This document shows, in pieces, positions 11,952 through 15,771 of a stretch of DNA of 64,000 nt (its first letter is position 1; the number at the start of each line of letters is the position of its first letter). A program made the translations under genes and the position numbers. This DNA comes from Salinibacter grassmerensis (GTDB lineage Bacteria > Bacteroidota > Rhodothermia > Rhodothermales > Salinibacteraceae), in assembly GCF_947077765.1 (NCBI RefSeq), contig NZ_CAMTTF010000002.1, forward strand, positions 310,001 to 374,000, given 5' to 3'. The notes beneath the pieces were generated by a model, which made no database searches, had not been told where the DNA came from, and worked only from the letters and a program-made list of their open reading frames with translations.

Positions 11952-13433
11952 ATGCCGTCACGCACGCAGATCGTCTGGTACAAGCGGGACCTGCGGGTCG
12001 GCGATCATCGCCCTCTCGCCGAGGCCGCCGACCGAGGGCCGGTGCTGCCCCTCTACGTGGCGGAGCCGTCCATTGCGGCGGGGGCAGACTATCATCCGCG
12101 CCACTGGACGCTGATTCGGGAGGCGCTCATTGAACTGCGGGCCCGCCTCGCAAAGCGGGGACAGCCTCTGGTCGTGCGCTGCGGCGAAATGCGGGGGATC
12201 CTCGACTCGTTGCGGGCAACCGCCGGTCCGCTCCGTCTTTGGGCCCACGAACAAACCGGCAACCAGCGCATGCTCGAGCGGGACCAGCGCGTCCGCGACT
12301 GGGCCCGCGCCCACGAGATCCCGTTTACGGAGGTGCCGAGCCGAGGGGTCGTGCGCGGGCCGCACGACCGCGATGAATGGGCGGACCAGTGGGAGGCGTT
12401 CATGGACCGGCCGCTCGTGCATCCCCCCGACGCGCTCCAACCGGTCGAAGCCGTAGAACCCGGGCCGATGCCATCCCACGCCGACCTGGGCCTCCGGCCG
12501 TCGACCGCCGCCCTTCAGCAAATTGGAGAGGCGGAGGCCCACCGGACCCTCGACTCGTTCTTCCGCGAACGGGGGCGCACCTACCGCCGGGCCATGTCGC
12601 GACCCGCCCCTGCGCAGACGGAATGCTCGCGGATATCGGTGCACCTAGCCTACGGCACGATCAGTCTGCGGCGGGTGGTCTACGAGCTGCGACGGCGACA
12701 GGAAGAGCTTCGGGGGAAGAGCGGCCCGGACGCCGCGGCCCGCCGCAAGGCGCTGAGCAGCTTCGACAGCCGCCTGCACTGGCACAGCCACTTTACGCAG
12801 AAGCTGGAGGACGCGCCCCGCATTGAAACAGAGAGCTACATCCCCGCCTTCGATGATCTCCGTGCCGACGATTGGGACCCGTCTCTCTACGACGCATGGC
12901 TCTACGGCCGGACCGGCTTTCCCATGGTCGACGCGTGCATGCGGCACCTACGAGCCACCGGCTGGCTCAACTTTCGGATGCGGGCGATGCTCTGCTCGTT
13001 TGCGGCCTACGACTGCTGGCTCGACTGGCGCCGGTTCGCGCCCACCTACGGCGGCCTCATGGCCGACTACGTGCCCGGCATCCATTACCCGCAGGTGCAG
13101 ATGCAGTCCGGCACGACCGGCATCAACCGCGTTCGCATCTACAATCCGATAAAGCAGGGCAAGGAGCAGGATCCCGACGGCACGTACATCCGGCGGTGGG
13201 TCCCCGAACTGTCGCACCTCGACACGACCGCGTACGTCCACGAGCCCTGGCGCATGTCCCCCATCGAGCAGCGCGCCGCCGGCTGCGTGATTGGAGAGGA
13301 CTACCCCGAGCGCGTGGTGGACCACAACGACGCGTACCACCACGCCCAGGACACCATTCACGAGTGTCGGCAACGCCCCGAGGTCCAGGCACAGGCCGAC
13401 ACCGTGCTGGAGCAGCACGGCAGCCGGGCCTGA
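11952..13433 (+). CDS. Photolyase/cryptochrome-family flavoprotein
   Basis: A 493-residue protein. The N-terminal antenna domain begins IVWYKRDLRVGDHRPLAEA. The C-terminal FAD domain has SRLHWHSHFTQKLED, YGRTGFPMVDACMRHL, TGWLNFRMRAMLCSF and RIYNPIKQG. It is expected to repair UV-induced pyrimidine dimers with blue light, or to act as a light sensor. E. coli PhrB has a WQWA segment carrying electron-transfer tryptophans, whereas this protein reads YPQVQMQSGTTGIN, so the classical tryptophan chain is not preserved there. The combination matches a separate bacterial photolyase-like group rather than class I CPD enzymes. Substrate (CPD, 6-4 or ssDNA) cannot be fixed. Confidence 0.88.
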   Translation: MPSRTQIVWYKRDLRVGDHRPLAEAADRGPVLPLYVAEPSIAAGADYHPRHWTLIREALIELRARLAKRGQPLVVRCGEMRGILDSLRATAGPLRLWAHEQTGNQRMLERDQRVRDWARAHEIPFTEVPSRGVVRGPHDRDEWADQWEAFMDRPLVHPPDALQPVEAVEPGPMPSHADLGLRPSTAALQQIGEAEAHRTLDSFFRERGRTYRRAMSRPAPAQTECSRISVHLAYGTISLRRVVYELRRRQEELRGKSGPDAAARRKALSSFDSRLHWHSHFTQKLEDAPRIETESYIPAFDDLRADDWDPSLYDAWLYGRTGFPMVDACMRHLRATGWLNFRMRAMLCSFAAYDCWLDWRRFAPTYGGLMADYVPGIHYPQVQMQSGTTGINRVRIYNPIKQGKEQDPDGTYIRRWVPELSHLDTTAYVHEPWRMSPIEQRAAGCVIGEDYPERVVDHNDAYHHAQDTIHECRQRPEVQAQADTVLEQHGSRA

Positions 13434-13720
13434 GCCATGGTTGAGAAAGACGGCTCCGCTGAAAACCGGCGCCTCGCCGGGGGGCGAGAAGCTGAAGTCC
13501 GTGTAACAGGAGGAACCCAAACGGACCCGAAAGATACCGGAAACAGCTTATGAATGATGAAGTCCTCACGATGACTGCTCCCTCGCACACATACTGTTGT
13601 TGCTGTCCGTGCACTCGTGCATGAACCGCGTGGTGAACGGCCGGCCCTACTGCCTCCGCCCACCGGTTCCGCCGGGGGCTTTTTTAGTTTCCCTCCCTTC
13701 GACGAGCCATCGCCCACGTC

Positions 13721-14668
13721 ATGAATGCCTACATCATCTACGAGAATGAAGACTGGATGCCGCCCCTCCGGTCGGCGCTCGACGCGGCGGACGTGCCCTA
13801 CGAAGAGTGGTTCGTGAACGATGGGCACTTCGACGTCACGGGCACGCCGCCCGAGGGCGTCTTCCTGAACCGCATGAGCGCGTCCTCCCACACGCGTGGC
13901 CATGGCCCGGCCGTCGAGCACACGCGCCAGCTGATCGCCTGGCTGGAGCGACACGGGCGGCGCGTCGTCAATGGCTCCCGCGCCTTCGAACTGGAAATCA
14001 GCAAGGTGCAGCAGCACGCCGCCCTGGAGCAGTCCGGGCTGCGGACCCCGGCCACGCGGGCCGTTGCGGGCGGGCCGGAGGCGCTGTTGGAGGCCGCGCA
14101 GGACGTGCCCACCCCGTTTGTGACGAAGCACAACCGCGGCGGGAAAGGGCTCGGGGTGCAGCTCTTCCGCACCCACGAAGCGTTCGAGGAAGCGGTGCAC
14201 GCCGGCGACATTCCCACGCCGCCGGCCCACATCACCCTCCTGCAGCAGTTCGTGGAGGCGGCGGAGCCGTTCATCACGCGCTGCGAGTTCGTGGACGGCG
14301 AGTTCCTGTACGCCATCACGTCCGATACCAGCGACGGCTTCGAGCTCTGCCCGGCCGACGCCTGCCGCACCGACGAGGACCGCTGTGCCGTAGACGGGGA
14401 CGACTCGCTCTTTGCCCTCCGCGAGGACGTGCCCGCGGCCCTCATCGACCGCTACAAGGCCTTTCTCGACCGTGAGCAGATCGACGTTGCGGGCATCGAG
14501 TTTATTGAAGACACCGATGGGCAAATCTGGACCTACGACATCAACGGCACCACCAACTACTCGCCCGAGGTCGAAGACGAGCACGACCTGAGCGGCATGG
14601 CCGCCGTTGCCGACCTCCTGAAGCGGGAACTCGAGGCAGCGGCCACTGGCGAGGGCATTCCCTCCTGA
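13721..14668 (+). CDS. ATP-grasp ligase (RimK-like)
   Basis: A 315-residue single-chain ATP-grasp enzyme. The N-terminal part (to about 90) is a pre-ATP-grasp fold. The ATP-binding strand-loop is FVTKHNRGGKGLGVQLF at about 133-149, and the metal-binding C-terminal end is IEFIEDTDGQIWTYDING followed by TTNYS. Such enzymes form amide bonds by activating a carboxylate as acyl phosphate, as in RimK glutamylation, peptide or cofactor synthesis. No RimK substrate or lysine-carrier gene is nearby. It lies 50 bases upstream of a flavin-dependent monooxygenase in the same direction, probably one operon, which suggests a small-molecule pathway. Substrate unknown. Confidence 0.8.
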   Translation: MNAYIIYENEDWMPPLRSALDAADVPYEEWFVNDGHFDVTGTPPEGVFLNRMSASSHTRGHGPAVEHTRQLIAWLERHGRRVVNGSRAFELEISKVQQHAALEQSGLRTPATRAVAGGPEALLEAAQDVPTPFVTKHNRGGKGLGVQLFRTHEAFEEAVHAGDIPTPPAHITLLQQFVEAAEPFITRCEFVDGEFLYAITSDTSDGFELCPADACRTDEDRCAVDGDDSLFALREDVPAALIDRYKAFLDREQIDVAGIEFIEDTDGQIWTYDINGTTNYSPEVEDEHDLSGMAAVADLLKRELEAAATGEGIPS

Positions 14669-14718
14669 CTCTGCTTTCCATCCCTCACCCTTCTTCTCCC
14701 CGACGCCCAACATCTCTG

Positions 14719-15771
14719 ATGATCGACCTTGGCATCTGGCTTCCCATCTTTGGCGGCTGGCTCCGCAACGTGGACGACGAGGGCATGCCGCCCACGTTCG
14801 AGTACAACCGGAAGGTGGCACAGGCCGCCGACGACGCCGGCTTCTCGACGATGCTCATCGCCGAGCTCAACCTGAACGACATCAACGGCCCGTCGCACCC
14901 GGCCCTGGAATGCTGGACCACGGCCTCGGCCCTCGCCCCGGTGACGGACGACATCCGCATCATGGCCGCCATCCGCCCCGGCTTCCGCGAGCCGGCCGTG
15001 ACCGCCAAGATGGCCTCCAACATCGATCACATCTCCGACGGGCGGTTCGAGATCAACCTCGTATCGGCCTGGTGGGAGGAGGAGATGAAAATGTACGTCG
15101 GTGACTGGCTCGACCACAGCGATCGCTACGACCGCTCCACCGAGTTTGTGCAGATCCTGAAGGGGCTCTGGTCGCAGGAGCGCTTCTCATTCGACGGCGA
15201 TTTCTATACCATCGAGGACACGATCCTGCAGCCCAAGCCCGTCCAGCCCGGCGGTGTGCCCGTCTACGCGGGCGGCGGCTCCGAGGAGGGACGCAACATG
15301 ATTGCCACCCACTGCGACCACTACCTCATGCACGGCGGCACGGTCGACAAGATTGCCGGCGACATTGAGGACCTACGCGAGCGCCGCGCCGAGAAGGGCC
15401 ACGACCCCGACGCGATGAAGTTCGGTATGGCGGCGTACATGATCTGCCGCGACAGTGAGCAGGAGGCCCGCGAGGAGCTCGACCGCATCACCTCGGTCGA
15501 CTACGAGGCCGAGGGCTTCGACAGCTACGACGACTTCGTGGAGCACTCCGAGCTCGACTCGGAGGTCGACCTCAAAGACTATTCGGTCTCGAACCGTGGC
15601 CTGCGGCCCGACCTGGTGGGGACACCGGATCAGATCGTGGAAAAGCTGAATGCGTACGCCGACGTGGGGCTCGACCTCGTGCTGCTTCAGTGCAGCCCAA
15701 TGCTGGAGGAGGTGCAGCGGATTGGGCGCGAGGTCATTCCGCGACTGAAGTCGGCCCCGGTACAGGGGTAG
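14719..15771 (+). CDS. Luciferase-like (LLM) flavin-dependent monooxygenase
   Basis: A 350-residue TIM-barrel oxidoreductase of the LLM/SsuD class. It opens with LGIWLPIFGGWLRNV and shows AAIRPGFREPAVTAKMASNID, the SDGRFEINLVSAWWEEE strand and PVYAGGGSEEGRNM. These are hallmark segments of FMN- or F420-dependent alkanesulfonate-monooxygenase relatives. It would use reduced flavin and O2 (or F420) on a small substrate, possibly sulfonated or amine-containing. Partner flavin reductase and transporter genes are absent here. It follows the ATP-grasp gene by 50 bases, and the pairing hints at a joint pathway. Length is normal. Confidence 0.87.
   Translation: MIDLGIWLPIFGGWLRNVDDEGMPPTFEYNRKVAQAADDAGFSTMLIAELNLNDINGPSHPALECWTTASALAPVTDDIRIMAAIRPGFREPAVTAKMASNIDHISDGRFEINLVSAWWEEEMKMYVGDWLDHSDRYDRSTEFVQILKGLWSQERFSFDGDFYTIEDTILQPKPVQPGGVPVYAGGGSEEGRNMIATHCDHYLMHGGTVDKIAGDIEDLRERRAEKGHDPDAMKFGMAAYMICRDSEQEAREELDRITSVDYEAEGFDSYDDFVEHSELDSEVDLKDYSVSNRGLRPDLVGTPDQIVEKLNAYADVGLDLVLLQCSPMLEEVQRIGREVIPRLKSAPVQG

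Follow-up and report, generated by a model that had tools for sequence, protein, structure and literature searches.

A ligase–monooxygenase gene pair behind predicted cysteine- and SAM-sensing RNA signals: a candidate organosulfur-salvage module in Salinibacter and other Bacteroidota

What would a bacterium do with an ATP-grasp ligase and a luciferase-like monooxygenase encoded side by side? The question arises from 64,000 nucleotides of Salinibacter grassmerensis DNA (the window; genome G000), in which an earlier note had described a RimK-like ligase gene and a flavin- or F420-type monooxygenase gene, 50 bases apart, as a two-gene unit. Both reading frames (here GRASP and LLM), the 50 bases from the GRASP stop to the LLM ATG and the two-gene reading are confirmed, with Pfam matches to PF08443 and PF00296 (Table 1). 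The stretch described there began just 3' of a cysteine leader and terminator (13571-13685), and the control region was overlooked.

Table 1. Positions of the genes and predicted control elements in the window
Feature	Position	Strand	Remarks
Cysteine-rich leader ORF MTAPSHTYCCCCPCTRA*	13571..13624	+	alternative longer in-frame start at 13550
Predicted antiterminator: GAACCG(c)GTGG 13623-13633 pairs with CCACCGGTTC 13660-13669	13623..13669	+	
Predicted Rho-independent terminator, a stem followed by six T	13658..13685	+	-16.5 kcal/mol, z -2.46
GRASP: carboxylate-amine ligase of the RimK/LysX ATP-grasp fold, 315 aa	13721..14668	+	
LLM: FMN-type group C flavin monooxygenase, 3RAO/8VW6 subfamily, 350 aa	14719..15771	+	

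What kind of ligase is GRASP? Its score against the RimK-like ATP-grasp family PF08443 (24.6 bits) barely exceeds the cut-off of 21, which marks it as a remote family member. It stays below the curated RimK and LysX cut-offs (TIGR00768, 57.3 vs 143.4; TIGR02144, 30.0 vs 275.6; PRK10446, 15.5 vs 331), and an assignment as RimK or LysX equivalog was rejected, as no subfamily or equivalog cut-off is reached. The folds closest to the predicted model (pLDDT 74) are those of LysX (Z 23.8), ArgX (Z 23.3) and RimK (Z 22.3), with only 15-17% identity in the structural alignments; glutathione synthetase is also among the matches. By modelled fold and ATP-grasp domain, GRASP is a member of the RimK/LysX-type ligases. 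Its relatives carry generic annotations ('alpha-L-glutamate ligase', 'hypothetical protein'). Neither tblastn of GRASP against phages nor a scan of viral contigs with GRASP and LLM alignments returned a relative, and a phage origin was discarded on these grounds.

The monooxygenase scores 223.8 bits against PF00296. The named families that score best are of the SfnG/SsuD type, and LLM is nearest to the C-S-cleaving group C enzymes, but it falls far under the equivalog cut-offs of SfnG (TIGR04021, 261.5 of 382.95 bits) and SsuD/MsuD (TIGR03565, 178.3 of 518.2 bits). Solved structures in its subfamily are 3RAO, from a Bacillus, and 8VW6, both with generic molecule names only; the predicted LLM structure had a mean pLDDT of 48 and was left out of the analysis. 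H133, R136 and Y137 (flavin phosphate) and N113 (O2 pocket) are invariant in 10 aligned LLMs and correspond to H123, R126, Y127 and N104 of MsuD; in these alignments LLM has kept both residue sets of the two-component FMNH2 monooxygenases. The sulfonate-binding motif of MsuD (W195, R225, R296, A/S299; PMC8234197) is where the two enzymes differ: mapped via an SsuD alignment with an inferred offset of one, and with the loop at R296 uncertain by one position, LLM has H205, A238, N292 (R293 adjacent) and L295, and the RGGA loop aligns with NRGL. Residues and scores rule out LLM as a strict alkanesulfonate monooxygenase; sulfonate substrates stay possible. Is the cofactor FMN or F420, the two choices offered earlier? 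G000, which is 99.7% complete, has no match to the CofD model TIGR01819, a search in which 6 of 14 control genomes match, 3 of them over the cut-off. Because no CofD was found and the nearest named families depend on FMNH2, the choice narrows to FMN and the F420 option falls away. Three flavin reductase genes (PF01613) occur in G000, none adjoining the pair.

Is the pairing peculiar to one genome, with the two genes separated elsewhere, as the earlier note had allowed? A neighbourhood survey of the kind it proposed found the genes linked well beyond Salinibacter. In f37, a distant Bacteroidota family sampled with 150 genomes from six genera, the GRASP and LLM sets are identical: the same 44 genomes hold both, linked on one strand in 45 of 45 pairs (G769 has a duplicated pair), with a junction of -4 to 3 nt in 23 of 41 loci. 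The two sets coincide in 10 of 394 genomes of a phylum sample. Separation occurs in 3 of the 14 Salinibacteraceae that keep both genes (G005, G006, G023) and is not general. In another phylum, that of G413, GRASP is present in 61 of 282 genomes and LLM in none (0/282, a search without a positive control in that set), which means that GRASP must be of use to a cell lacking this LLM; at 21 loci examined there, it has no conserved neighbour at a consistent position. The GRASP and LLM distance matrices correlate with r of 0.91 over 51 pairs, 0.93 over 10 Salinibacteraceae pairs and 0.55 in f37, values equalled by 0 of 2000 permutations in each set. The lower f37 figure is likely explained by 12 permease-bearing loci of genus g79, which carry a diverged LLM (~76-78% identical to that of locus L058) beside a closer GRASP (88-91%). 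These genome comparisons show GRASP and LLM to be a conserved unit.

What switches the unit on? The region upstream of GRASP has the parts of an amino-acid-responsive transcription attenuator, namely a Cys-rich ORF, a terminator and an antiterminator helix that excludes it, and is a predicted cysteine attenuator. The leader is the only one of 940 small ORFs in the window with at least four Cys in six codons; across 854 kb of G000, six of 12,371 small ORFs are equally Cys-rich, and the single one followed by a terminator is the GRASP leader. All three elements are found in five Salinibacter genomes (G000, G015, G011, G014, G021), where the terminator is almost identical and the antiterminator helix can form throughout, with one G-U pair in G011. 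The Cys codons of the G014 leader are interrupted. A sixth Salinibacter, G018, has a different sequence that would yield an analogous antiterminator helix and another hairpin with a T-run. Over the Salinibacteraceae, a strict Cys-run leader lies within 500 nt upstream of GRASP in 6 of 15 cases against 8 of 728 background windows; of the nine that miss it, a relaxed test picks up three, and nothing persuasive is seen in G005, G006 or G001. The SAM-I riboswitch (RF00162) has no hit in the window at gathering score.

The relatives add a second signal. A SAM-I riboswitch lies ahead of 43 of 45 f37 pairs, and a SAM-I aptamer is also present at a Deinococcus peraridilitoris locus. In 40 of the 43 f37 loci the aptamer is followed, after 7-12 nt, by the start of a strict Cys-run ORF. 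Such leaders occur within 500 nt upstream of GRASP in 38 of 44 f37 cases (background 39 of 1888 windows) and in 12 of 62 in the phylum of G413 (background 2 of 449). Are these runs translated? A codon-position comparison was set aside as circular, the runs having been picked as Cys codons, and a frame test took its place: in the Cys frame, the run and a stop codon are 0-2 codons apart in 33 of 38 f37 leaders (0 of 38 in each other frame), and 27 of 38 have an in-frame upstream ATG (4 and 2 in the other frames). Terminators are inconsistent in the f37 leaders (12 of 44). No NCBIfam family matched ten leader peptides, a neutral result. The Spirosoma, Pediococcus and Deinococcus deserti loci have no SAM riboswitch and, in the 500 nt searched, no Cys leader; upstream of the Pediococcus homologue stands a sub-threshold T-box with a UGGU that, by the T-box discriminator rule, misfits tRNA-Cys. 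Short ORFs with Cys runs near the stop are known before sulfur genes in Mycobacterium cys operons (PMC1262725), and as poly-cysteine leader peptides (Canestrari 2020, as cited by PMC13236596). The passages concerned describe those leaders without conserved terminators, whereas Salinibacter has a terminator/antiterminator pair and f37 a SAM riboswitch directly 5' of the poly-Cys ORF. On these sequence features, GRASP-LLM is very probably under cysteine/SAM-responsive control.

The neighbours point the same way in part. In Salinibacteraceae G005 and G006 the unlinked LLM sits directly 3' of cysD-cysNC. In Deinococcus, an LLM of the Salinibacter type accompanies a different ATP-grasp: D. peraridilitoris has the order SAM riboswitch, ATP-grasp, LLM, and another locus has cuyA, cuyB (cysteate racemase and sulfo-lyase genes), ATP-grasp, LLM. 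A one-family amino-acid permease follows the pair in 12 of 41 f37 loci, all in g79; the earlier statement that no transporter or known partner is present thus holds for the adjoining genes searched here and fails there.

A pair standing behind RNA signals that seem to sense cysteine or SAM probably serves an uncharacterised sulfur pathway used when cysteine or methionine runs short. The earlier idea, a unit that might make or break down an amide-containing small molecule, overlooked the cysteine/SAM control elements, which direct attention to sulfur acquisition. We consider a role in sulfur acquisition likely, and an organosulfur-salvage module switched on by cysteine/SAM shortage somewhat favoured. 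Sequence evidence backs the control elements well; the substrate and chemistry are what we infer. With charged Cys-tRNA in short supply, the ribosome would stall at the leader Cys codons, the antiterminator would form and the operon would be transcribed; at aptamer-bearing loci low SAM would be a second permissive signal, perhaps by exposing the nearby leader start codon. GRASP would then activate a carboxylate and join it to an amine, like LysX, ArgX and RimK, the amine probably being that of a cysteate-like or S-substituted organosulfur compound, an amino acid or an amine, which would end up amide-blocked. LLM, with FMNH2 from a separate flavin reductase, would oxygenate next to sulfur and break the C-S bond, freeing sulfite or thiol for cysteine synthesis, and a peptidase or amidase encoded elsewhere would recycle the blocking group; no hydrolase for unblocking was recognised adjoining the pair.

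The scheme borrows the N-acetylate, oxygenate, deacetylate logic of Bacillus subtilis and would put an ATP-grasp ligase in the acetyltransferase's place. In the YxeL-YxeK-YxeP route for S-(2-succino)cysteine and the CmoO/CmoJ route for S-alkylcysteine, as outlined in the sources, the amine is acylated, a flavin monooxygenase cuts the C-S bond and cysteine is recovered (PMC10863075, PMC9706529). Those routes, so outlined, block by N-acetylation, whereas the partner here is a ligase; LLM scores best with SfnG/SsuD-type families, and no deacylase was recognised adjoining the pair. A search of 10 window proteins turned up neither N-acyltransferase nor deacylase. Amide-blocked C-S cleavage is a tentative and rather doubtful step. 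The fuller picture is plausible but short of an even chance: an undescribed cysteine-acquisition pathway in which ATP-grasp conjugation replaces N-acetylation and a new LLM subfamily desulfurises, controlled by a two-input SAM and Cys-tRNA sensor in f37 and by the Cys attenuator alone in Salinibacter, and assembled again in Deinococcus with another ATP-grasp. Among the matches listed in open-access full text, judged by title and abstract start, with most subscription papers outside that scope, no description of the pair or of the riboswitch/poly-Cys tandem was recognised.

Could the pair build something instead? It might make a sulfur metabolite or modified dipeptide, such as a low-molecular-weight thiol derivative, with the sensors only coordinating it with sulfur supply. 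Ligases of the GRASP fold do make peptides and thiols, glutathione synthetase included, and a bacillithiol-deacetylase-type gene (bshB1, scored in L058) occurs in 4 of 41 f37 loci, directly after LLM in 3; but it is limited to those four, and Cys-codon leaders and SAM aptamers normally activate at low cysteine or SAM, the wrong moment for spending cysteine. We regard this reading as unlikely. Less probable still is protection of the butirosin kind, in which the ligase adds an aminoacyl group and LLM hydroxylates carbon, with sulfur uninvolved. BtrJ, an ATP-grasp glutamyl ligase, and BtrO are a nameable known case combining a ligase with a flavin-superfamily monooxygenase; the antibiotic is made there on a chain attached to a carrier protein. 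No acyl carrier protein, decarboxylase or transferase was recognised adjoining the Salinibacter pair, however, and the cysteine/SAM sensors and cys neighbours would be left unexplained. The search of 10 window proteins gave no carrier protein. Is the poly-Cys ORF perhaps not, or not only, a leader? It could encode a ribosomal scaffold peptide, extended by the ATP-grasp and oxidised by LLM in a RiPP- or pearlin-like manner. The f37 ORFs are constant in start and length (32-46 residues), mostly ending in Cys runs at the stop, and LysX-type ligases work on a small carrier protein, to judge from the titles of the structural matches. The Salinibacteraceae ORFs, in contrast, are 11-17 residues long and share little apart from their Cys codons, and the Salinibacter ORF is followed by the terminator and its exclusive antiterminator, which leaves the scaffold as improbable as the butirosin scheme. 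Chance linkage or hitchhiking of unrelated genes, which the separated genes of three Salinibacteraceae and the GRASP-only phylum might suggest, is very improbable and already contradicted by the identical presence and absence in f37, the duplicated pair of G769, the overlapping or near-overlapping junctions and the second ATP-grasp/LLM pair in Deinococcus.

For the organosulfur-salvage reading, the control region supplies the physiological clue, cysteine/SAM shortage, that the generic names of a ligase and a monooxygenase lacked, and it turns two enzymes of unknown function into a directly testable sulfur-salvage hypothesis. The Bacteroidota gain a candidate cysteine attenuator that comprises both a terminator and an antiterminator; the tandem of SAM riboswitch and poly-Cys leader is a candidate for a compact natural two-input RNA sensor.

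The earlier note had placed two open reading frames here, a RimK-like ligase and a luciferase-like monooxygenase, and its coordinates hold exactly. Domain searches agree with both identities: the ligase (GRASP) fits the RimK-like ATP-grasp family as a distant member, and the monooxygenase (LLM) is a clear luciferase-like match. The genome (G000) is 3.78 Mb and 99.7% complete, with the window on its contig 2, and GRASP has a 94% match in the congeneric Salinibacter altiplanensis (L018; G011). The predicted GRASP model (pLDDT 74, pTM 0.74) lies closest to LysX, ArgX and RimK, mutually within about 1.5 Z. Residues K136, E260, D273 and N275 never vary, and R187 hardly does, across 12 sequences (identity down to 31%); from the roles in RimK, we take them to be ATP-grasp residues.

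Which cofactor does LLM use? Its nearest PDB structures are 3RAO and 8VW6, followed by dimethylsulfone monooxygenase 8T0U and alkanesulfonate monooxygenases 7JV3 and 1NQK. LLM retains the flavin-phosphate and O2-pocket residues of MsuD but not its sulfonate-binding set (residues as reported in PMC8234197). CofD was not found in the genome, which has three flavin reductases. Taken together, these features make LLM most likely FMNH2-dependent; of the 'flavin or F420-type' proposal, the flavin half stands and the F420 half is rejected, no CofD having been found. A second LLM, 34% identical, lies ~0.9 kb from a flavin-reductase gene (G000:C1:366197-368546; L043, L190), possibly a separate two-component monooxygenase.

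Is the pair peculiar to this genome? The neighbourhood survey for conserved pairing that the earlier note had suggested was run, and confinement to one genome is contradicted by a distant Bacteroidota family (f37), where 45 of 45 pairs are linked on the same strand; separation is seen in three relatives (G005, G006, G023), which carry both genes but not together. Within Salinibacteraceae, GRASP occurs in 16 of 27 genomes and LLM, at an identity of at least 75%, in 14, all with GRASP (the bare search threshold gives 15/27, adding G024 at 36%). The genes are side by side in 10 of these 14, and in G012 each is close to a contig end. G025, an assembly 85% complete, has GRASP but no LLM match. Short LLM-like remnants directly 3' of GRASP, on a Spirosoma plasmid (L045:6994-7095) and in G002 (L069:6890-7096; LLM truncated, GRASP kept), are two apparent losses of LLM with the ligase retained.

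Among 394 Bacteroidota genomes (completeness at least 80), GRASP (E 1e-30) and LLM (E 1e-90) occur in the identical 10, three of them f37 members. Among 150 f37 genomes, GRASP (E 1e-40) and LLM (E 1e-90) again share the identical 44, spread over four of six genera, each of which also includes pair-free genomes. We take these counts to be far from chance, and give them without a p-value because the genomes are related. Linkage was read full length in 41 f37 loci and from coordinates in four (G827, G705, G807 and G792, the last with a distance of about 170 nt). Measured between the stop codon of GRASP and the point where LLM begins in the alignment, the gap is -4 to 164 nt in all but one of the 41 fully read loci (-4 to 3 in 23 of these 40); the exception is G830 (1531 nt). 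G769 has two pairs, the LLM of the second copy (C44:39420-40433) bearing an in-frame TGA. Behind LLM, in 12/41 f37 loci, stands a same-strand gene for an amino-acid permease, always of one family; this permease also comes after GRASP and the LLM-like fragment on the Spirosoma plasmid (L045). In f37 genus g79 (e.g. L058, L059), similar GRASPs have either of two LLM types (about 76% identical) beside them, and only one type is accompanied by the permease, which suggests replacement in place.

The pairing has a limit in a third phylum (that of G413; 282 genomes). GRASP (E 1e-40) is present in 61 genomes and LLM (E 1e-60) in 0/282, a set with no positive control, though the same query matched in both Bacteroidota sets; no neighbour of GRASP is consistently positioned among 21 loci. 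Thus GRASP is the more widespread component and LLM probably an addition to it. Where other bacteria have GRASP but not this LLM, either another oxygenase takes its place or GRASP works by itself.

Upstream of GRASP lies a cysteine-rich leader ORF followed by a predicted terminator.

Features of the Salinibacter locus upstream of the ligase gene (window coordinates)
Feature	Position	Strand	Context
Photolyase/cryptochrome-family gene	11952-13433		directly 5' of leader; adjoins the pair only in six same-genus loci
Cys-rich leader ORF, ATG-ACT-GCT-CCC-TCG-CAC-ACA-TAC-TGT-TGT-TGC-TGT-CCG-TGC-ACT-CGT-GCA-TGA	13571-13624	+	between photolyase gene and GRASP
Predicted terminator	13658-13685	+	3' of leader ORF

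Beyond the Cys codons, GAACCG(c)GTGG could pair with CCACCGGTTC as a predicted antiterminator, and CCACCGGTTC doubles as the 5' side of the terminator, so the two structures are mutually exclusive. The layout recurs in G015 (MTAPSPAHCCCCPYTRA), G011 (MLTRLHMYCCCCPSSRV), G014 (MTTPSPTCRCRCPCTRA) and G021 (MLAPARVYCCCMQSPCA). G003 (MMCCCRVPRSLV) and G004 (MMCCCRALRSFL), of a different genus and with different gene neighbourhoods, have the leader and then a GC-rich stretch and T-run, terminator-like by eye; G018 differs in sequence, yet an analogous antiterminator and terminator are possible. At least 4 Cys in 6 codons occur in 6 of 12,371 short ORFs in the 854 kb scanned (22.6% of the genome), and by pattern only the GRASP leader among those six has a terminator behind it.

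A leader was scored as strict if CCC, or 4 Cys in 6 codons, lay no more than 500 nt upstream of GRASP; such leaders occur in 6/15 Salinibacteraceae loci (background 8/728 windows), 38/44 in f37 (39/1888) and 12/62 in the third phylum (2/449). Loosening the rule to 3 Cys in 5 codons gives 9/15 (50/3080, own genome), 41/44 (126/1766, f37 loci) and 13/62 (16/1034), the last two backgrounds with leaders kept in. These counts omit G792 (1/45), G025 (1/16, without upstream DNA) and two of 64 third-phylum matches (one unfetched, the other short of upstream DNA). Most f37 leader ORFs carry Cys at or near the C-terminal end (...TISTCCCCCCC*; near the end in MACCCCCCLA*). A stop falls within two codons of the Cys run in 33/38 for the Cys frame and 0/38 for each other frame, which argues that these runs are translated rather than a mere repeat.

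The f37 leaders have a further element. A SAM-I riboswitch (RF00162; 64-83 bits, Rfam gathering score 44.4) lies 5' of 43/45 pairs; G839 and G705 lack both it and a Cys leader. In 40/43 loci an ORF of 32-46 residues with a strict Cys run begins 7-12 nt 3' of the aptamer (GTG start 26, ATG 14), and the remaining SAM-I loci, G841, G814 and G701, have Cys-rich ORFs that fall short of the strict rule. This constant spacing suggests that the aptamer would control leader translation. Start and length of the poly-Cys ORF after the aptamer are near-constant (e.g. L133-L162). No SAM match was found at gathering score in the window and Salinibacteraceae loci L060-L064, L066 and L069, at E 0.1 in L266, or in thirteen third-phylum loci.

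Other links to sulfur come from the neighbours. The unlinked LLM of G005 and G006 lies directly 3' of cysD and cysNC (both pass their NCBIfam cut-offs in G005; in G006 cysNC does, and cysD was called from its translation). In G023, GRASP is ~2.5 kb from a cysteine-synthase/sulfur-carrier/MoeB-like cluster, with an opposite-strand gene intervening and scores partly under cut-offs. Deinococcus plasmids carry this LLM type behind another ATP-grasp protein, one without significant similarity to GRASP (BLASTP E 0.33). In D. peraridilitoris pDEIPE01 (L047:4369-7041) a SAM-I riboswitch (60.6 bits) precedes this gene and LLM; on D. deserti plasmid 3 (L046:2879-7026) two genes lie upstream in the same row: the one annotated 'D-cysteine desulfhydrase' scores as the D-cysteate sulfo-lyase CuyA (535 against 450), and the 'amino acid racemase' as the cysteate racemase CuyB (271 against 190). 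One locus speaks against a sulfur link: a Pediococcus acidilactici plasmid (L044:5795-8918) has, in series, a T-box-like leader, a thioredoxin-fold gene, a dicarboxylate/amino-acid symporter and a GRASP homologue of 41% identity. This leader scores 69.7 bits, short of the gathering score (93), and carries UGGU, which does not match tRNA-Cys, so the GRASP-type proteins there may be dedicated to a different amino acid.

What would the ligase do? In the reported YxeK and CmoJ routes, N-acetylation comes before the monooxygenase step (PMC9706529, PMC10863075). By analogy, the best explanation for GRASP would be that it caps the amino group of a sulfur compound ahead of LLM; cysteate-like or S-substituted amino acids are candidate substrates. 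Poly-Cys leaders are reported to precede cys operons in Mycobacterium and Propionibacterium and cbs in Bifidobacterium, with other attenuator elements missing there (PMC1262725). Neither SAM riboswitches nor LLM salvage enzymes are new. For the ligase–LLM pair, the Salinibacter attenuator and the combination of these elements, the open-access literature, among the matches listed and as far as their text was accessible, gave no description. The predicted Cys and SAM sensors would place the operon with genes switched on at low cysteine or SAM. A role in scavenging organic sulfur agrees with the monooxygenase type (FMNH2-dependent, from the C–S-cleaving group), with the permease that some loci carry and with the neighbours of the cys/cuy kind.
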